DNA of 38,005 bases, taken from NCBI GenBank assembly GCA_039028635.1, contig JBCCHV010000064.1, positions 1-38,005 of the forward strand, in the 5' to 3' direction. Shown piece by piece: positions 4,535 through 15,403 of this stretch (position 1 is its first letter; each line of letters starts with the position of its first letter). The stretch comes from Acidobacteriota bacterium. GTDB lineage: Bacteria > Acidobacteriota > Thermoanaerobaculia > Multivoradales > JBCCEF01. Position numbers and translations under genes: made by a program. The notes under the pieces were generated by a model. That model ran no database searches, was not told the origin of the DNA, and saw only the letters and a program-made list of their open reading frames with translations.

Positions 4535-4965
4535 CCGCGGTCGCCCTCGCCGAGCTCGGCCAGGAGCTGCCAGTAGTCTTCGGCCAGTCCGCCATCGGCT
4601 TCGAGAACATAGGCCGAGTCCTCGGCAACCTCCTCCGGCAGCGCGCCGACGCCGACGCCGAGAAAGATGCCGCCGGCGAGCGCCGCGGCTCCGGCGGCCC
4701 GCACCCAGCGCGGCAACGGCTGAGGCCGATGGCGGCTCTCCCAGTGGGCCAGGACTCGCCCCTTGAAGCCCACCGGCACGGCCGCCGGGGGCGGCAGCTC
4801 GAGGCCGCTCCACAACCTCTCCAAGCGCTGCCGCTCGGCCTCCAGGGCGGGGTCGTCTTCCGCCAACCGGCGCAGCTCGCGCTCCCGCTGCGGCGACAGC
4901 TCGCCGTGAATCCAGCGCCACAGCTCTTCTCGCCGCCAGGGCTCGGTGGGTTTGTGCTCTTTCAT
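4531..4965 (-). CDS. Transmembrane anti-sigma factor
   Basis: A 144-residue protein with a cytoplasmic N-terminal region (about 1-85) that would hold the sigma factor, one transmembrane helix (about 88-109) and a short acidic periplasmic tail. The opening (WRREELWRWIHGELSPQRER, then LRRLAEDDPALEAERQRL) resembles the small helical anti-sigma domain, but without the HxxxCxxC motif of zinc-binding ZAS proteins. Its ATG overlaps the sigma stop by four bases and its own stop overlaps the downstream sensor's GTG, so the three genes are translationally coupled. Sequestering the adjacent ECF factor at the membrane is inferred from this context. Confidence 0.8.
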   Translation of the reverse strand: MKEHKPTEPWRREELWRWIHGELSPQRERELRRLAEDDPALEAERQRLERLWSGLELPPPAAVPVGFKGRVLAHWESRHRPQPLPRWVRAAGAAALAGGIFLGVGVGALPEEVAEDSAYVLEADGGLAEDYWQLLAELGEGDRG

Positions 4966-5591
4966 GATCGCGTTCCTTCCGGCTCGAGGCTCTCACCGTC
5001 GAGCACCTTTTCCAATGTTCGCATGGCGCGGAAGAGTCGGCTCTCAACCGCCCCGCGGGTGATCCCCAAAACCTCGGCGATGTCGCGGTAGGCGAGCCCT
5101 TCGAAGCGCGCCAGGATGACCACTGACCGCTGTCCCGAGGGCAGGGCGTCGATCGCCCGGCGCACCTGCCGCCAGCGCTCGCGGGTCTCGAGCTGCTCAC
5201 CGGCATCGGCCAGCGGCGAGGCCGGATCGAGGGCCGTCTCACCACGGCCGGCGGCTTCGTCCGCCGCCGGTGCCAGGCGCAGGAACTGCACCACCTTCTT
5301 GCGCCGCAACCGATTCAAGCAGTGGTTGACGGCGATGCGGTAGAGCCAGGTGAAGACCTGTCCGCGGGGCTGGAACCGACCGGCCTTGCCGTAAGCCTTG
5401 AGAAAGACCTCTTGGGTGACGTCGCGGGCTTCCTCGACATCGCCGAGCATGCGCTCACAGAGCCGCAACAGGCGCTCTTGATGGCGCTCGACAAGGCTCC
5501 CGAAGGCCTCCGCGTCGCCGGCGGCAACGCGCGACAGAATCTCGCGATCGGGATCCGAGAGCTCGGCGGGTAAGGACTCAGCGACCACCAC
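4962..5591 (-). CDS. ECF-type RNA polymerase sigma factor
   Basis: A 209-residue sigma-70 family factor of the extracytoplasmic-function group. Region 2 (about 25-100) contains EEARDVTQEVFLKAY and the promoter-melting segment FTWLYRIAVNHCLNRLRRKK. Region 4 (about 145-197) contains ALPSGQRSVVILARFEGLAY, RDIAEVLGI and the recognition helix TRGAVESRLFRAMRTL. There is no region 1.1 or 3, as expected for an ECF factor. The GTG at 5591 is the longest start; a second GTG follows immediately. The gene begins 63 bases after the receptor gene's stop on the same strand, so it may be cotranscribed with it, and it directly overlaps its probable anti-sigma gene. Confidence 0.93.
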   Translation of the reverse strand: MVVAESLPAELSDPDREILSRVAAGDAEAFGSLVERHQERLLRLCERMLGDVEEARDVTQEVFLKAYGKAGRFQPRGQVFTWLYRIAVNHCLNRLRRKKVVQFLRLAPAADEAAGRGETALDPASPLADAGEQLETRERWRQVRRAIDALPSGQRSVVILARFEGLAYRDIAEVLGITRGAVESRLFRAMRTLEKVLDGESLEPEGTRS

Positions 5592-5654
5592 GCCCTATGC
5601 AACCCGTCAGCGGGCGAAAGCTTGCGCTCGGCCGGGGCCGAGATTGGATCGCGC

Positions 5655-8102
5655 TCACAGACGAATCGCGGCGAGCTCGCTCCGCAGCTCGCGACCGGAG
5701 GCGGGACGACCGCCGGGCTCCGGGCGCAGGGCCGCCACCAGAACCTCCGCGAAGGTTCCCGGGAGCTGGCCGTCGGGCTCCGGCGGCGCCTCCTTCGGCG
5801 GCCAGTCACCGGCCGCCAGCCGGTAGACGATGGCGGCCGCCGAGTAGACGTCGCTGCGGGCGTCGATGGCTTGCCCTTCCGGCACCTCGACCGTCGATCC
5901 CGCCACCAGGGAAACTCCGAAATCGGTCACTCGCACCCTGCCATTGGGCTCGAAGAAGACATTGCTCGGAGTCAGTCGGCCATGGACCAAGGCCTCCCCA
6001 TGGGCCTCTTCGAGGGCCGCCGCGAGCAGCCGTGCGGCGCGCAGCGCCGCCGCCGGCGGCAAGGCCTCGATGCGACCCAGAACATCCGCCATCGGCACGC
6101 CATAGATCCACTCCCGGGCGAGGTAGGCGAGGCCGTCGGCAACCCCGAAGTCGTAGGTTCGCGCCACCGCTTCGCCGGTGAGCTTGCGGGCCGACTGCAG
6201 GCCGCTGTCGAGGCGCTCGAACTGGGCGACGTCGGTCAATCCCGCCGGCCGGTAGAGCTTGAGGGCGACCAGCTCACCGAGCTCGCGGTCGCGCGCCCGG
6301 TAGACCGCGCTCGCCGGTCCCGAGCCGACGGCCTGCAAGATCTCGAAGCGTTGGCCGAAGATGTCGCCGGGGCCGAGATCGGCGGCCGGCCGCTCGCCCT
6401 CACCGGCCAGCGGCGAGACCGCGGCGAGGGAAAGGGCGGCCAACGGCTGCGGCGAGAGCACGCCGCGGCGCTCGGCGGGCTGGATCCCGAGGGCTGAGAG
6501 GTGCTCCTCGAGGCGCCCCTTGACCTGACGGTCGAGAAGCACCTCGCCCCCATCGGCTTCGCGCAGCAGACTGTCGAGAAGCCGCAAGGGCACGCCGGCC
6601 AGGGCTTGACCTTCACAGCCGGCCAGCGCCCCGGGGCCGGAGGTCACCTTGCCCGCCGCCAGGGCGACGGCCGGTGGCTCCCGTTCATCGAAGGCGTTGC
6701 TCTTCGCCGTCAAGGCGGTGAGGACTTCGGTGGCGGCGGCGAAGGCCGCCTTGGCCGCATCATCGCCGCGAAACGCACCCAGGGCTCGCGCCCCGAGGTT
6801 GCCGATGAAGACGCCACCACTGCCGCGCACCGCGCCGGCAACTCGCCGCAGGTCTTGATTCAAACCGTCGAGCACCTCCTGGGCGTCGAGCCCCGGGGCA
6901 CTGCCGCGCAAATCCACCCCCAGCAAGACGACCTTCTCCGCCCGCGCCGCCGCCACCGCCTCACCGGACCCGGCCGGGCGGCTGAGGGTGGCGCCGACGG
7001 CCTCCAGGGAGCGCCGCTCCCGGAGATCGCCGAGCAGACCGTTGAGGGCAACGGACAGGGGCGCCAGGGCGCCCGCCTTGCGGCTGTCGATGCGCTGCTC
7101 ATAGTCTCCCCGGGCCGCGATCTCGAGCGATTCCGCCAGGCGCTTGGCGGGGGTCGCGCCACTGCGAGCCAGGGCCATCACGGCCGGCGCCGCGAGCAGC
7201 AGGGCGAGGAGCCCGGCGGCGCCCATGGCGGCTACCGGCAGCCACCAGCGGCCGCCCGGCGGAGGCGCCACCGGAGAGAGCACGGCCAGAGCGCCAGCGG
7301 GCTCGCCGGCGGCGTCGAGAAGGGGCGTCAAGGTGGCCTCCCAGGGGGCTCCGTCGAGGCTCCAGGAAGCCCTGGGATAGGCCTCTCCGTCGCTCAGGAC
7401 GCGCCCCAGCTCACCGCCCGGGCCGCCCAGACCGCCGACCTGTCCCTGCAGTCCGAGGGCAAAGCGCTGGCTGCTCGCCCCCACCAGCTCGGGGCCGACG
7501 GCGGAGCGGCTGTAGTAGGCGGCATGGGAGCCACCGATGCGCTGGATCTCGAGGGCGAGGAGGTCGTCGACGGCGAAGGCGGCGACGGCGAAGCCGACGA
7601 GGTCGAAGTCCGCCACCACCGGCTGGCGGGCGGCGTAGTAGAGCAATCCACCCTGCTCCCAGTAGCCGGTGACGCCGTCCTCCACCGCCGGCGCCTCGAG
7701 CAGCGAGCGAGCCGCCGCCCCGAGGGCCGTGCTCGAGCCGTCGCTGCGCGCCAGGACCTGCCCCTGGGGGTCGGTGATCAGGGCGAGATCGAATCCCAGG
7801 CGCGCCCGCAGGGTCTCGAGACCACCGGTCATGGCGTCCCCGTCGTCGACCTCCAAGGCCTGCTGCAAGGGCTGGTCCTCGGCCAGCAAACGGGCGATCA
7901 GAGACAAGCGATCGAGGCGTTCCCGCTGCAGTCGGTTGTGGGCGCTGGCGCTGCGCTGCAGGCTCTCGCCGACGACGTCACCGGTCGGTTGGGGGCGGTT
8001 GAGGAACCACAGCGCCAGAGCCCCGATCAGCACCGTCACCGCAATGATCAGCACGCAGATCGAGAACAGCCGCCTTGCCATCGAGCTACCGGAATCCGCC
8101 AC
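5655..8102 (-). CDS. Receptor with Cache-like sensor, degenerate cyclase and pseudokinase domains
   Basis: An 815-residue membrane protein. Order: TM1 (about 11-34), extracytoplasmic sensor (about 35-285, Cache-like), TM2 (about 287-311), HAMP-like linker (about 312-365), a region at about 388-570 resembling a class III nucleotide-cyclase domain (VVLLGVDLRG, then GGVFIGNLGARALGAF, then LAAGKVTSGP), and a Ser/Thr-kinase fold (about 580-815). The kinase part keeps the VALK lysine (K615) and DFG (727-729), but the HRDLKPxN loop reads HGRLTPSN (707-714), so the catalytic Asp is Arg709 and the following Lys is Thr711. The glycine loop is poor. It is therefore probably a pseudokinase. The cyclase-like region lacks the usual metal-binding second Asp. 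A GTG start has a strong GGGAGG eight bases upstream. It may signal to the sigma module downstream. Confidence 0.8.
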   Translation of the reverse strand: MADSGSSMARRLFSICVLIIAVTVLIGALALWFLNRPQPTGDVVGESLQRSASAHNRLQRERLDRLSLIARLLAEDQPLQQALEVDDGDAMTGGLETLRARLGFDLALITDPQGQVLARSDGSSTALGAAARSLLEAPAVEDGVTGYWEQGGLLYYAARQPVVADFDLVGFAVAAFAVDDLLALEIQRIGGSHAAYYSRSAVGPELVGASSQRFALGLQGQVGGLGGPGGELGRVLSDGEAYPRASWSLDGAPWEATLTPLLDAAGEPAGALAVLSPVAPPPGGRWWLPVAAMGAAGLLALLLAAPAVMALARSGATPAKRLAESLEIAARGDYEQRIDSRKAGALAPLSVALNGLLGDLRERRSLEAVGATLSRPAGSGEAVAAARAEKVVLLGVDLRGSAPGLDAQEVLDGLNQDLRRVAGAVRGSGGVFIGNLGARALGAFRGDDAAKAAFAAATEVLTALTAKSNAFDEREPPAVALAAGKVTSGPGALAGCEGQALAGVPLRLLDSLLREADGGEVLLDRQVKGRLEEHLSALGIQPAERRGVLSPQPLAALSLAAVSPLAGEGERPAADLGPGDIFGQRFEILQAVGSGPASAVYRARDRELGELVALKLYRPAGLTDVAQFERLDSGLQSARKLTGEAVARTYDFGVADGLAYLAREWIYGVPMADVLGRIEALPPAAALRAARLLAAALEEAHGEALVHGRLTPSNVFFEPNGRVRVTDFGVSLVAGSTVEVPEGQAIDARSDVYSAAAIVYRLAAGDWPPKEAPPEPDGQLPGTFAEVLVAALRPEPGGRPASGRELRSELAAIRL

Positions 8103-8265
8103 GGGTGAGCCTCCCAGCCAAATCCATCGAAAATTGAACCTTGCGCGCCCGATCGTAGCAGGGCGGCGAGAATCGGCGCAGCTCTCTCCTCATCCCCTGT
8201 TACGATCCTGCCGGCTCGTCGCAAGTGCCCTCCGAGCCCTCGACACGACGCGGAGAAACACCTCC

Positions 8266-9318
8266 ATGACCGACTCCCCCAAGGCCGCCATCGAGGCCTT
8301 CATCGCAAATCCCGCCAAGGGCGATTTCGACATCCTGGCGCAGGCTGCCTTCGCCTTCCAATACGAACGCCTGGCGCCCTATCGCCGCCTCTGCGACGAA
8401 CGGGGCGCGCGGCCCGGAGAGCTGCCGTCCTGGCGCCAGGTGCCGGCGATTCCGGCGAGCGCATTTCGCAGCCTCGAGCTCGCCACCGCCGAGCCCCAGG
8501 CGGTCTTCCGTAGCAGCGGTACGACCGGCGGTTCGGAGGGCGAGGAGCGCAGCGTCCACCACCACCCCTACCCGGACCTCTACCGGCGCGCCATCGACGC
8601 CGCCTTCCCGGCCTTCTGTCTGCCCACCCGGGAGCGGCCGGTGATGCTGTCCTTGGTCCCCGATCTCGAGGACTCGAGCCTGGCCTTCATGGCCCGCCAC
8701 GTGCTCGAGCACCACGGCACCGAGGGCAGTGTCTCCGCCTTCGGGCCGAAACGCCTCAATCTCAAGGTCGCCCGCTCCTGGCTCGGCGCCCGCCAGCGCG
8801 ACCGCCGGCCGGCCTTCCTCTTCGCCACCACCTTCGCCCTCGCCCACCTCACCGAGGCGCTCGAAAAGCAGAACCTCCGCTTCCGCCTGCCGGTCGGCAG
8901 CACTGTCCTCGAGACCGGCGGTTTCAAGGGGCGAGCGCGGGAGGTCTCGCGTCAGGAGCTCCACCAGCAGCTGGAAGCCTTCCTCGGCATTCCAAGGGGC
9001 CGCATCGTCGGTGAATACGGCATGACCGAGCTCACCAGCCAGCTCTACACCGGCACCCTTCAGGGTGGCGACCCGGACGCCTTCGGCGCCCCCCATTGGG
9101 TGCGCTGGCGGCTCCTCGATCCGATCAGCCTCGAGGAAGTCCCCGCCGGCGAAACCGGACTGATCACCCTGTTCGACCTCGCCAACCTGGGCTCGGCGGT
9201 GCACCTGATGACCGAAGACCTCGGCACCGACGACGGCGACGGCCTGCGCCTCGTCGGCCGCGCCCAGGGCGCCGAGCTGCGCGGCTGTTCCCTGACCGTC
9301 GAGGAGCTTCTCGGATGA
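8266..9318 (+). CDS. luxE-like: LuxE-like acyl-protein synthetase
   Basis: A 350-residue member of the acyl-protein synthetase family (LuxE, PF04443 by recognition). In the Lux system LuxE activates a fatty acid with ATP, takes the acyl group on a C-terminal cysteine and passes it to the LuxC reductase. Visible features are the nucleotide-loop motif FRSSGTTGGS (81-90), GEYGMTEL (249-256) and Cys341 nine residues from the C-terminus, matching the position expected of the acyl-carrying cysteine. Length is close to known LuxE (about 370-380). The ATG at 8266 has a GGAG ten bases upstream. It heads a three-gene operon; its stop overlaps the next ATG by four bases. No luciferase gene (luxA/luxB) is in the window. 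Confidence 0.85.
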   Translation: MTDSPKAAIEAFIANPAKGDFDILAQAAFAFQYERLAPYRRLCDERGARPGELPSWRQVPAIPASAFRSLELATAEPQAVFRSSGTTGGSEGEERSVHHHPYPDLYRRAIDAAFPAFCLPTRERPVMLSLVPDLEDSSLAFMARHVLEHHGTEGSVSAFGPKRLNLKVARSWLGARQRDRRPAFLFATTFALAHLTEALEKQNLRFRLPVGSTVLETGGFKGRAREVSRQELHQQLEAFLGIPRGRIVGEYGMTELTSQLYTGTLQGGDPDAFGAPHWVRWRLLDPISLEEVPAGETGLITLFDLANLGSAVHLMTEDLGTDDGDGLRLVGRAQGAELRGCSLTVEELLG

Positions 9319-9674
9319 TCGAAGCCAGCTTCGGCCACTTCGAGATTCCATCGCCCGACCCGGCCGCCACGGCACGCTTCTTTCGCGCCGCCTTCGGCTG
9401 GTCCAGCGCCGCCGTCGAACACCAGGGTGGTGAGTATCGAAAGTTACGTCCTCCCCACGGGCCCGGCGGCGGCATCACCGCCGACCACCAAGCCGTGCCG
9501 CAACCGCTGGTGGTGATCCATCTCCACCGCGGCAGCCTCGAGGAAGCGCTGGCCGCCATCGAAGAGGCGGGCGGACGAACCGAGCTGGCTCCCCAAGAGA
9601 TCGCGGATCAGGGGCGCTTCGCGCGCTTCCGCGATCCCGCCGGCCACCTCTACGGCCTCTGGCAGGGGCGGTGA
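9315..9674 (+). CDS. VOC-superfamily (glyoxalase-like) protein
   Basis: A 119-residue single-domain protein of the vicinal-oxygen-chelate fold: paired beta-alpha-beta-beta-beta units with GHFEIPSPDPAATARFFRAA at the start and a closing DPAGHLYGLWQ strand typical of the family. VOC proteins include metal-dependent isomerases, dioxygenases and binding proteins; specificity cannot be read here. It sits between the LuxE-like and LuxC-like genes, overlapping each by four bases (ATGA and GTGA), so it is very probably produced with them. A role on the acyl or aldehyde substrate is inference from position only. Confidence 0.85.
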   Translation: MIEASFGHFEIPSPDPAATARFFRAAFGWSSAAVEHQGGEYRKLRPPHGPGGGITADHQAVPQPLVVIHLHRGSLEEALAAIEEAGGRTELAPQEIADQGRFARFRDPAGHLYGLWQGR

Positions 9675-10846
9675 CGGCGCCCTCCCCGGCCGACCTCGCC
9701 AGCGAACTGGCCCGCCACGGCTCAGCCCTGCGCGGCCTCGACCGCGACCGCCTGCTGACGGCGTGGGATCAGACCGTCGAGAGCTTTCGCGATCCCGGCT
9801 CCGCCGAGCGACGCCGACTCGCCGACCCCCTCGCCAGGGCGACCGGTCTTTCTCCGCCAGGCCTCGACGCCGCCCTCGAGGCGGTTCTTGGCGGCGCCCG
9901 GAGAGAAGTCGCCGCCACCACCTTCGCCGCCGCCCAAGACTTTTCCGCACCGCTCGATCCGGCGCTGGTCATCCTCTCCGGAAACTTACCGGCCCTGGTC
10001 GTGCAGACCCTGCTGCCGGCCCTCGCCCTCGGCCGGCCGGCGCTGTTCAAGGCGCCGCGTCAGGAGCCGCACTTCACCGCCGCATTCTTGGCGAGCCTGA
10101 TTCGTCGATTGCCGGTCTTGGGCCAGGCCACGGCCAGCGCTGTTTGGCAAGGCGGCGATCCAGAGATCGAAGCACCGCTGTTCGAGCGCGTCGGTCGAAT
10201 CCTGATCTATGGCGACGAGGCAGCGACCGCCGACGTCGCGCGGCGGGCACCCGGCAAAACCCACGTCTACGGCCCCAAGACCAGTCTGGCGATCATCGAC
10301 GAAGCTTCGCCCAAGGAAGCGACCATTCGCGGCCGCGGCCGCGACATCGCCCTCTTCGACCAGCGTGGATGCCTGTCGATTTCGGCCGTCTTCTGCACCG
10401 GTGACGGCCGCGATCTGGCGCAACGGCTGGGCCGCGAGCTGGCTCGCCGAGCTCGCCAATGGCCGCCCGGCAGACCTGCCCTGGAAGCCGCCGCCACGGT
10501 CCGCCAGTGGCGTGAAACGGCGACCCTGCGAGGTCTCTTCCAGGCCGACCTCGATCCCGCCGCCGGCACCGTGATCGTCGCGCCGGAGGCGACCTTTCTT
10601 CCCAGTCCCGGCCAGCGGGCGGTGCGAGTTCATCCGCTGCAGGAGCTCGCCGACGGCCTCGAGAGCCTCCGGCCCTGGCGCGGCAAGCTGCAGGGTGCAG
10701 CCCTCGCGGGGCCGCAGGCCTGGGCCCTGCGCCACCGGCTCACGGAGCTCGGACTCAGCCGCTTCGCGGCCGTCGGCGAGCTGCAATCGCCGACGGCGAG
10801 CTGGCACAATGGCGGCCGCGATCCGCTCGCCATAATTTCAGAATGA
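9671..10846 (+). CDS. luxC-like: LuxC-like acyl-CoA/acyl-protein reductase
   Basis: A 391-residue protein of the LuxC acyl reductase family (PF05893 by recognition), related to aldehyde dehydrogenases. It would reduce an enzyme-bound acyl group to a fatty aldehyde with NADPH. The probable catalytic cysteine is C234 in FDQRGCLS, the family's active-site context; ILSGNLPALV (101-110) and the HVYGPKTSLAII region (199-210) fit the nucleotide-binding fold. It is shorter than marine LuxC (about 480). The GTG start overlaps the VOC stop. Together with the LuxE-like protein it would form a two-component fatty-acid reductase. It is the last gene of the operon; no clear terminator follows. Confidence 0.85.
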   Translation: MTAPSPADLASELARHGSALRGLDRDRLLTAWDQTVESFRDPGSAERRRLADPLARATGLSPPGLDAALEAVLGGARREVAATTFAAAQDFSAPLDPALVILSGNLPALVVQTLLPALALGRPALFKAPRQEPHFTAAFLASLIRRLPVLGQATASAVWQGGDPEIEAPLFERVGRILIYGDEAATADVARRAPGKTHVYGPKTSLAIIDEASPKEATIRGRGRDIALFDQRGCLSISAVFCTGDGRDLAQRLGRELARRARQWPPGRPALEAAATVRQWRETATLRGLFQADLDPAAGTVIVAPEATFLPSPGQRAVRVHPLQELADGLESLRPWRGKLQGAALAGPQAWALRHRLTELGLSRFAAVGELQSPTASWHNGGRDPLAIISE

Positions 10847-11032: not shown

Positions 11033-12172
11033 ATGAATCATTGGAAAGTACTGCGGACGGTAGCCATCGTCCTCGCCATCGCCTGTCTCCTCACCCTGCC
11101 AGCGACCGCCCAGACGGCTGCCGAGCGCGCCGAGCTGGCCGCCGATGCGGCCGGCAACAGCGATCAGCCCGGTAGCGGGTCGGACGACGGCGGCATCGTC
11201 TGCACCACCGGTTCGCCGACCGACTTCTACTTCAGCGACTTCGAGGCCGACGGCGGTGGCTTCGCCCTCTCGGCCGGCGCCGATTGGGAGCGCGGCGCCA
11301 TCGTCACCGGGGTGTTCGAGAACTGCGACATGCCGCCGCGACCGGAACCGGCGGCAGCACCTTCTGGCTCCAACGTCTGGGCCAACAATCTCGATGGCTG
11401 CTATGACAATGCCAACGCCGAGAGCATCCTCAGCCAGACCTTCGACTTCAGCTCCTTGAGCGCGCCGATCGAGCTCACCTGGGAGAACTGGTACGAGGTC
11501 TTCGTGAGCTTCGACATGGGCGAGGTACTGGTCAACGGCGACACCGTCTTCAGCATCGGCACCACCGCCGCCACCGGCTTCGTCACCGAAAGCGCCGACC
11601 TGTCGGCCTATGCCGGACTGGCGAGCGTCACCATCGAGTTCCGCCTCTTCGCCACCAGCGTGGTCAACCGCATGGGCATGTACATCGACGACGTCCGCAT
11701 CGCCACCTGCGGCGGCGAATCGGAGCTCGAGATCACCAAGAGCGACGACTCCGGCGGCACGGTGATGCCGGGCGGCACCCTGGTCTACACCCTCGAGGTC
11801 ACCAACAACGGCCCGGACGACGATTCCGACGTGGTGGTCACGGACATGCTGCCGGCGGAGGTGACCTACGTCTCCGACGACTGCGGCGCCCTCAACGTAC
11901 CGCCCTGGACCTGGAATGTCGGTACCGTCATGGCCGGTGGCAACGCGATCTGCAACATCACGGTGACCGTTGACGGCGAGGGACCGATCGTCAACACGGC
12001 GACGGTGACCGGCGCCAACTCGGACGACATGACCGGCAACAACGCCTCGACCATCACCACCGTGGCCCAGGCCAGCGTCCTCGAGATTCCGACCCTCGGC
12101 ACCCTCGGGCTGGTGGCCTTGATCCTGCTCCTGCTGGGGTCCGCCACGCTGCTGATGCGCCGCCGGACCTAG
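11033..12172 (+). CDS. DUF11-domain surface protein with IPTL-type C-terminal anchor
   Basis: A 379-residue exported protein. It has a signal peptide (about 1-27, cleavage after ATA-Q), a jelly-roll-like region (about 60-230), and a DUF11 repeat (about 236-350) with the hallmark TLVYTLEVTNNGPDDDSDVVVTD-type sequence seen in bacterial surface proteins. The C-terminus is a tripartite sorting signal: EIPTLGTLGL (351-360), a hydrophobic helix and the basic tail MRRRT. This matches IPTL-CTERM signals, which are linked to exosortase-type anchoring; no exosortase gene is in the window. It is a monocistronic gene, flanked by a promoter candidate and a strong terminator. Its role (adhesion or envelope) is not determinable. 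Confidence 0.88.
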   Translation: MNHWKVLRTVAIVLAIACLLTLPATAQTAAERAELAADAAGNSDQPGSGSDDGGIVCTTGSPTDFYFSDFEADGGGFALSAGADWERGAIVTGVFENCDMPPRPEPAAAPSGSNVWANNLDGCYDNANAESILSQTFDFSSLSAPIELTWENWYEVFVSFDMGEVLVNGDTVFSIGTTAATGFVTESADLSAYAGLASVTIEFRLFATSVVNRMGMYIDDVRIATCGGESELEITKSDDSGGTVMPGGTLVYTLEVTNNGPDDDSDVVVTDMLPAEVTYVSDDCGALNVPPWTWNVGTVMAGGNAICNITVTVDGEGPIVNTATVTGANSDDMTGNNASTITTVAQASVLEIPTLGTLGLVALILLLLGSATLLMRRRT

Positions 12173-14689: not shown

Positions 14690-15403
14690 ATGGAAGGCGT
14701 GCGAATCTACCTCTTCGCCCTCCTCGCCTGCGCCTGCCTGATTCTGGGATGCTTTCCTCGCCAGGCCGGACCGCGCCTCGCCCACTTCGCCACCACCGCA
14801 CCAGCCGTCGGAGAGCCGGCGCCGGCGTTCTCCCTGCCGTCCCTCGACGGCGGCGAGCTCGCCCTCGAAGAGTTGCTCGACGATCGGCCCGTCGTGATCC
14901 AGCTCGGCAGCCACTCGTGCCCCGTTTACCGCTTCCGGCGCCATTGGCTCCGCGGCCTTCTCGAAGACTACGGCGAGCGAGTCCGCTTTCTCGTGATCTA
15001 TTCCATCGAGGCCCATCCGGAAGGTTCCAAGAGCCCCCATGCGGAGGGTGAATGGAACCCCTGGATCAACAAGATCGCCGGCATTCGCATCGCCCAGCCG
15101 GAGACCTTCGAGGAGCGCTTCGAGCGCGCCCGGCAGTCGCGCATCGACCTCGGCCTCACGGACTTCGAAAGCTCTCTGTCCTTCGTCGTCGACCGCCTGG
15201 ATGACGCGATCTGGCAGACCTACGGTGCCGCCTCGGCACCAGCCTTCGTTCTCGATCGTGACGGCACGGTGGTTTCCCGCCAGGTGTGGGTCGATCCGAA
15301 GGAAATCCGCCGGGTCCTCGATCGCCTTCTCGCCGCAGACCCCGAGCCGGCGGCAGCTCGCGAAAGGGCCGCGGCCCAGTCCGACGAAAGAGCCCCTCAG
15401 TAA
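14690..15403 (+). CDS. Deiodinase/redoxin-family lipoprotein
   Basis: A 237-residue lipoprotein: the signal ends in the lipobox LILGC with lipidated C21. The rest has a thioredoxin-like fold close to the T4-deiodinase family (PF00837 by recognition), with GSHSCPVYRFRR (C77 at the position of the deiodinase selenocysteine region), FLVIYSIEAHP (100-110) and a C-terminal LDRDGTVVSRQ strand. Bacterial members are mostly uncharacterised thiol oxidoreductases; iodothyronine is not implied. An upstream GTG at 14678 would add four residues; the ATG at 14690 is preferred. It ends convergently with the DinB-like gene, overlapping by seven bases. Confidence 0.8.
   Translation: MEGVRIYLFALLACACLILGCFPRQAGPRLAHFATTAPAVGEPAPAFSLPSLDGGELALEELLDDRPVVIQLGSHSCPVYRFRRHWLRGLLEDYGERVRFLVIYSIEAHPEGSKSPHAEGEWNPWINKIAGIRIAQPETFEERFERARQSRIDLGLTDFESSLSFVVDRLDDAIWQTYGAASAPAFVLDRDGTVVSRQVWVDPKEIRRVLDRLLAADPEPAAARERAAAQSDERAPQ

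Follow-up and report, generated by a model that had tools for sequence, protein, structure and literature searches.

A candidate LuxE–LuxC–aminotransferase route to preQ1 in Acidobacteriota

The luxE-like and luxC-like genes on the 38,005-nucleotide stretch of Acidobacteriota DNA analysed here (the window; contig C64 of a 6.28 Mb, 117-contig genome, G000) probably encode two enzymes of an alternative three-enzyme route leading from 7-carboxy-7-deazaguanine (CDG) to the queuosine precursor preQ1, one that would bypass both QueC and QueF. It is likely, too, that this forms a widespread branch of queuosine synthesis, with LuxE, LuxC and a class-III aminotransferase (AT) at work in much of the same Acidobacteriota order and in several other phyla, and with a second AT type recruited. 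We know of no earlier route to preQ1 that dispenses with QueC and QueF; if real, LuxE–LuxC–AT would be the first. Among open-licence PubMed Central (PMC) papers, we found none that brings queuosine together with LuxE or LuxC, and broader searches of these papers gave no LuxE–LuxC–AT route to preQ1 among the matches listed.

In the proposed scheme, QueD–QueE would supply CDG, whose carboxylate LuxE would adenylate in an ATP-dependent step and load onto Cys341 as a thioester. LuxC, using Cys234 and NADPH, would reduce the thioester to 7-formyl-7-deazaguanine, which a class-III AT dependent on pyridoxal phosphate would convert to the primary amine preQ1 (7-aminomethyl-7-deazaguanine), the precursor of queuosine that is inserted into tRNA. 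The trio would replace QueC, which turns the carboxylate into a nitrile, and QueF, which converts the nitrile to the amine. We infer the substrate, the intermediates and every catalytic step of this scheme from the observations below. Throughout, G numbers denote genomes (G000 being that of the window), L numbers fetched loci and f numbers families.

The luxE–VOC–luxC locus

The window locus and its main features are as follows.

8266..9318, + strand: luxE-like gene, 350 residues (Pfam LuxE); proposed CDG adenylase and acyl-cysteine carrier
8512..8529, + strand: SSGTTG of LuxE, residues 83–88; S83, S84, G85 and T86 invariant in 14 aligned order members
9013..9030, + strand: EYGMTE motif of LuxE, residues 250–255; EYGM[TS]E in 43/43 non-degenerate and 0/8 degenerate rows
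9286..9288, + strand: codon of LuxE Cys341, proposed acyl-thioester cysteine (alignment to 7xc6, row conservation)
9315..9674, + strand: VOC-fold gene, 119 residues, a neighbour (Pfam Glyoxalase, AlphaFold2 model)
9671..10846, + strand: luxC-like gene, 391 residues (Pfam LuxC); proposed NADPH-dependent thioester reductase
10370..10372, + strand: codon of LuxC Cys234, proposed catalytic cysteine (alignment to 7xc6 chain A; 51/52 rows)

Successive genes overlap by four bases, ATGA at 9315–9318 (luxE/VOC) and GTGA at 9671–9674 (VOC/luxC). Positions, strand and both overlaps agree with an earlier note on this DNA, which had read the three genes as a fatty-aldehyde operon lacking luciferase. The proteins pass their Pfam cut-offs (LuxE PF04443, 48.5 bits against 24.9; Glyoxalase PF00903 for the VOC protein, 34.3 against 20.6; LuxC PF05893, 119.6 against 21), and with the acyl and catalytic cysteines in place LuxE and LuxC belong to these families. 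The NCBIfam equivalog models for the light-organ enzymes are far from reached, LuxE scoring 49.6 of 550 bits (NF052244) and LuxC 48.5 of 750 (NF052251). The absence of luxAB, also claimed in that note, holds for the 29 of 30 called window genes scanned, where Pfam found no luciferase family; the rest of the genome was not searched for luxAB.

LuxE has cysteines at 43, 118 and 341, and LuxC at 234 and 242. C341 aligns to the GCSL tail of chain E of the LuxC–LuxE fatty acid reductase of luminous bacteria (7xc6), and C234 lies within a stretch aligned to chain A, which has a cysteine at the same place. Both residues are kept, as had been claimed, and both enzymes look catalytically intact as judged from sequence. 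Position 341 is cysteine in 41 of the 46 LuxE rows of the order alignment, the exceptions being G407, G408, G409 and G437, all without LuxC, and the frame-broken G429; position 234 is cysteine in all LuxC rows except that of G419, which is cut by a contig end. RGCSL surrounds Cys341 in 42/43 non-degenerate LuxE rows (the miss is again G429) and in 0/8 degenerate ones. The SSGTTG stretch we take, from the superfamily, to be a phosphate-binding loop. A stricter rough P-loop pattern had missed 13/43 intact rows, and a looser SSGT pattern was counted instead, present in 41/43 non-degenerate rows (truncated rows account for both misses) and 1/8 degenerate rows.

The AlphaFold2 model of LuxE (mean predicted local distance difference test score, pLDDT, 86.9) has as its closest folds PaaK1/2, BT_0428 and 2-hydroxyisobutyryl-CoA ligase, acid-adenylating enzymes of the PaaK type. 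The first long-chain ligase appears only at rank 28, behind PaaK-type small-acid ligases. The model fits acid adenylation, without naming which acid.

Gene linkage and co-occurrence with queuosine synthesis

GTDB genome contigs were scanned with the LuxE alignment, and the best 80 of at least 448 loci were taken. A set of 44 (L197–L240) comprises two order members, one locus without a called luxE and 41 others (42 outside loci if the uncalled one is included). On the same strand, luxC adjoins luxE in 23/41, and 19/41 have an AT no more than two genes from luxE; some of these genes overlap, as in L201 (AT 4689–5927, luxE 5920–7050, luxC 7047–8348). AT–luxE–luxC sets, some with queE or queD, occur in Verrucomicrobia, Planctomycetota, Omnitrophota, Eremiobacterota, Lindowbacteria, a Legionella metagenome-assembled genome (MAG) and others. 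queE is present in five of the 42 outside loci, four of them verrucomicrobial and with queE just upstream of AT–luxE–luxC, at most one small gene intervening (queE–AT–small gene–luxE–luxC in L197 and L199; queE–small gene–AT–luxE–luxC in L201 and L211); in the fifth, from KSB1, queE lies downstream. queD is found in three, all from Verrucomicrobia, directly after luxC in L208 and L230 and two genes past it on the opposite strand in L229. In one Lindowbacteria locus, AT and luxE are separated by a gene for a QueF-like protein (L202:5574–5900; Pfam 30 bits against a cut-off of 27.3, QueF-II model 27.6 against 86.9). With queE or queD beside AT–luxE–luxC, a carboxylate-to-aldehyde-to-amine sequence was therefore read as CDG to preQ1, and this reading was then tested in the order.

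Our order sample comprises 72 genomes from 28 genera. LuxE is found in 61 genomes and LuxC in 53 by a search at 1e-10, or 54 with the divergent gene of G436, which has no match at 1e-10 and was counted from neighbourhood BLAST. Where both genes share a locus they run luxE to luxC in tandem on one strand in 39/41 cases, 24 of the 39 less than 200 bases apart, supporting the view that LuxE and LuxC belong together; in some genomes (G368, G399) they lie far apart. A check of gene-order conservation, proposed in the earlier note, divides: the luxE–luxC pair is kept, and the luxE–VOC–luxC trio was seen only in the window genome and its congener G238.

The AT (family PF00202) is encoded in trans in the window genome, at G000:C23:13271–14530 after dnaX-, ybaB- and recR-like genes (names from sequence reading), and scores 452.7 bits against 309.7 for the next class-III enzyme of that genome. 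It is present in 55/72 order genomes by our own classification, which calls an AT at 400 bits or more, adds G152 (378 bits) by its post-recR site and clade placement, and classes G437 (368 bits) and G417 (381) as paralogues by tree and neighbours. Of the material behind the tree, 45 AT loci were fetched; G386 and G334, without a called AT, were counted by profile match and are not in it, one row of more than 800 residues was omitted and one of more than 700 was trimmed to its last 450. The order ATs in the tree (27 rows) group with 16 of the 19 luxE-linked outside ATs in a clade supported at 100/100 and distinct from the other class-III sequences sampled; a short G368 row, labelled a paralogue by script, is yet placed inside the order clade. 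The remaining three, from KSB1, HR30 and Binatia, are a second type that also accompanies luxE–luxC and falls in another class-III group; an AT therefore seems to have been recruited to this pair more than once. Six operon ATs of other phyla, scanned against NCBIfam, matched known class-III kinds below cut-off among the matches listed (25 of 69 each).

The window genome carries an overlapping queD–queE pair and queA (the latter on G000:C36). QueD scores 96.8 bits (cut-off 89.25) and QueE 292.8 with QueE_gams, slightly below the cut-off of 300, and we read both CDG-forming enzymes as present; the preQ1-using step is there as well (QueA, 465.5 bits, cut-off 324). QueC and QueF gave no match in this genome. 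Across the order, QueA is found in 67/72 genomes, QueE (1e-8) in 58/72, QueC-family matches in 6/72 (G397, G398, G428, G408, G429 and G431) and QueF in 7/72 (G397, G398, G407–G410 and G428). All seven QueF genomes, from three families (f3, f4 and f88), lack LuxC and the AT clade, and the four that retain luxE (G407–G410) have lost its catalytic motifs. Joint counts are given below as both/LuxC only/partner only/neither; high-quality refers to the 53 genomes with completeness of 90% or more and contamination of 5% or less.

LuxC and AT: 50/4/5/13 by genome; 20/0/0/8 by genus; 41/2/3/7 high-quality
LuxC and QueF: 0/54/7/11 by genome; 0/20/4/4 by genus; 0/43/4/6 high-quality
LuxC and QueE: 49/5/4/14 by genome, leaving out QueE of G397, G398 and G428 (weak, in QueC genomes) and of G408 (phage-like)

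QueE thus counted accompanies LuxC in 49/54 LuxC-positive genomes and is found in 4/18 LuxC-negative ones (G401, G420, G430 and G438), all four of which have the AT. These tables take G408 as QueC-positive and G429 and G431 as QueC-negative. LuxC-positive genomes for the most part retain queA as well as queE, with no QueF and no persuasive QueC among them. Within the order, queE adjoins luxE in G425, where the queE–luxE gap also holds an Acido-Lenti-1 RNA (RF01687; L380:6841–6886, − strand). In G396, a PTPS/QueD-like gene (L109:1877–2245; 83 bits, QueD cut-off 89.25) lies about 4 kb upstream of luxE.

One alternative, that of the earlier note, is that LuxE and LuxC make fatty aldehyde or alcohol without luciferase, the VOC protein accepting the aldehyde or setting specificity. 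It draws on the family membership and conserved cysteines of the pair, and on luciferase-free LuxE/LuxC pairs such as those described, in passages of PMC7874193, in Aeromonas flagellin glycosylation islands that also carry fatty-acid genes. We consider it very unlikely: it leaves the exclusion of QueF, the co-loss with AT and QueE and the linkages to queE and queD unexplained, VOC presence is untied to LuxC, and the LuxE model, a weak argument, is nearer to the PaaK-type ligases than to its distant long-chain match. Genomic links point to 7-deazaguanine chemistry in preference to a fatty substrate. The earlier note thus made the right observation, with a doubtful partner in the VOC protein and probably the wrong substrate.

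The 13 order genomes with neither LuxC nor AT fall into sets that fit the CDG-to-preQ1 bypass. Three (G397, G398 and G428) match QueE, QueC and QueF. G407–G410 have QueF and no QueC or QueE outside a phage-like stretch, and likely salvage preQ0, to judge by gene content. G414, G415, G416 and G418 have QueA and none of QueE, QueC or QueF found, and by the same token are likely to salvage preQ1. G437 and G417 have no QueA; a Tgt-like gene lies close to the degenerate luxE of G437, and G417 is 74% complete. These genomes also bear on a second alternative, in which LuxC-positive genomes take up preQ1 or preQ0 from outside, use QueD–QueE for a different purpose and have a Lux pair with no connection to either. 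In its favour, salvage is a common strategy, and part of PMC11130926 describes a transporter of preQ0/preQ1 from an Acidobacteriota bacterium; the likely salvagers of the order, however (G407, G409 and G410 with QueF; G414, G415, G416 and G418 with QueA), have neither LuxC nor the AT clade, and we regard this account as highly improbable.

The phage-like stretch of G408 (L370; G408:C139:34000–45000) carries QueC, QueD, QueE and one of the two QueF matches of that genome, which suggests 7-deazaguanine DNA modification. All eight genomes that keep a luxE-like gene but have neither LuxC nor AT have lost the EYGMTE motif and the acyl cysteine. These degenerate open reading frames (ORFs), of about 285–323 residues, occur in two families and remain open at the old site after LuxC and AT have gone (G407, G408, G409, G410, G414, G415, G416 and G437; L159, L160, L128, L145–L148 and L127); they may have a second, non-catalytic role.

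Several observations weigh against a CDG-to-preQ1 role. Fisher tests by genome (LuxC–AT, P = 2.1e-7; LuxC–QueF, 2.2e-5; LuxC–QueE, 8.4e-8) ignore phylogeny. LuxC occurs without AT in G214, G403, G404 and G440, and AT without LuxC in G401, G420, G422, G430 and G438. The LuxC gaps of G401 and G420 are explained by contig ends, and fragmented assemblies may cause several of the other LuxC, AT and QueE exceptions; no such cause accounts for G214 (7 contigs, 96% complete), whose luxE is read in two frames. LuxC-positive genomes without QueE are G399, G419, G424, G427 and G440. Many assemblies in these three groups of exceptions are fragmented, but G214 has the 7 contigs just given and G399 has 70. 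A second QueE type reaches only 61–69 bits (G420, G421, G423, G425, G441, G442 and G443), and two such proteins scored 158.7 and 149.7 against NCBIfam, below the cut-off of 240. QueC-family matches occur in two LuxC-positive genomes, G429 and G431 (L334 and L335). No preQ1 riboswitch passed the Rfam gathering threshold in 44 sources (the window, 33 of the 44 loci L197–L240 and ten order loci). Outside the order, 18/41 loci lack a same-strand adjacent luxC and 22/41 lack an AT within two genes; 16 short phylum loci (L002–L017, three of them order members) showed neither AT nor QueE in their 1.5 kb flanks; and the QueC and QueF presence tables are confined to order genomes. The QueC-family matches of G429 and G431 were considered as true QueC and set aside as other systems, their neighbouring ORFs being judged by eye; possibly these genes act in DNA modification or defence.

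A third alternative is that the trio makes an amine from a different carboxylic acid and its tie to the que genes is indirect, through shared lineage losses. The genome counts are phylogenetically dependent, the substrate is assigned by inference and 33/42 outside loci have no queD, queE or QueF-like gene in the fetched stretch. We give this account a small probability, since QueF occurs without the trio in three families, several lineages have queE or queD linked to the trio, and LuxC-positive genomes would otherwise have no evident means of passing from CDG to preQ1. Making preQ1 from CDG remains our preferred role for the trio.

The VOC gene and other neighbours

The VOC subfamily is present in 15/72 order genomes, in all 15 within 6 kb of luxE or luxC. 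The gene lies between luxE and luxC in seven loci: in the window genome and its congener G238 it is in sense, in the other five antisense. Its AlphaFold2 model (mean pLDDT 93.5) is closest to 2r6u, Rv0577 and AbxF. VOC metalloenzymes of the glyoxalase I type have conserved His/Glu/Gln metal ligands; across 13 aligned members of this subfamily no metal-ligand set is conserved, position 8 being variable (H, R, F, Y or Q) and the last strand reading GLW, with no ligand Glu.

The VOC protein had been suggested to accept the aldehyde or choose the substrate. As an aldehyde acceptor it was dropped from our main interpretation: its presence is untied to LuxC, it is often antisense and it lacks conserved metal ligands. 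A broader version, in which the VOC protein functions within the luxE–luxC system, for example by holding or editing a reactive aldehyde, could appeal to the four-base overlaps, to the proximity in every order genome that has the gene, and to genes for other-subfamily VOC proteins that follow luxC in G425 and queD in L230. We think it unlikely: VOC is found in 11/54 LuxC-positive and 4/18 LuxC-negative genomes, it persists next to degenerate LuxE where LuxC and AT have gone, and its profile matched no protein in the outside loci (0/41). Mere nearness to luxE or luxC says little, because the wider neighbourhood is itself conserved across families of the order (UvrA, a MauE-type protein, a thioredoxin-like protein, a kinase and an extracytoplasmic function (ECF) sigma factor). 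We read the VOC gene as a local neighbour, with at most a putative role in the pathway. The two other-subfamily genes, at L380:9619–10044 (G425) and L230:8820–9275 (a Verrucomicrobia-type MAG), may stand where they do by chance.

Directly after luxC, the window encodes a DUF11 protein (11033–12172, + strand) with an IPTL-type C-terminal tail, judged by eye; a homologue adjoins luxC in G238 and in no other locus of the neighbourhood clustering. Further on (14690–15403, + strand) lies a match to the iodothyronine deiodinase family PF00837 (47.9 bits). Divergent from luxE, a fusion of a Cache-type sensor with a protein kinase domain (5655–8102, − strand) sits in the conserved set with the ECF sigma factor. 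In eight genomes of f88, f89 and f90, a ferredoxin-like gene, called from its cysteine pattern alone, adjoins luxE (L096, L098, L099, L100, L103, L104, L107 and L128; cluster 13).

Comparison with known systems

In passages of PMC11130926, queuosine-pathway profiles are called from QueD, QueE, QueC, QueF, Tgt, QueA and QueG/H; if the proposed route is real, organisms bearing the trio would be scored by such profiles as unable to make preQ1. The route would also explain a large set of LuxE and LuxC genes in non-luminous bacteria, and predicts 7-formyl-7-deazaguanine as a metabolite.

In luminous bacteria, LuxE adenylates an acid and holds it as a cysteine thioester, which is then reduced on LuxC. 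The cysteine regions of the window pair align with those of 7xc6, and the same two-step chemistry is what we propose for it. Unlike the luminous pair, it is tied to an aminotransferase and que genes, has low light-organ scores and comes with no luciferase in the window genes scanned; by the same scan and the light-organ models, the locus does not qualify as a bioluminescence lux operon. Luciferase-free homologues of LuxE and/or LuxC are described, in the passages concerned, from Aeromonas flagellin glycosylation islands (PMC7874193) and as Riemerella AS87_03730 and V. cholerae RfbN (PMC4772473). These differ from the window pair in having glycan or fatty-acid settings or an unknown role, and those passages mention no queuosine link.

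The luxE-linked ATs share PF00202 with class-III enzymes such as GabT, putrescine aminotransferase, ArgD, LysJ and PigE; they differ in that the order ATs and most of their luxE-linked counterparts form a clade of their own, with a proposed substrate suggested by genomic context. The canonical QueC–QueF route has the same proposed start (CDG) and end (preQ1), and QueC also begins by adenylating the CDG carboxylate. Where it passes through the nitrile preQ0, the LuxE–LuxC–AT trio would dispense with this intermediate and with the QueC and QueF folds, proceeding instead through an aldehyde and its transamination.

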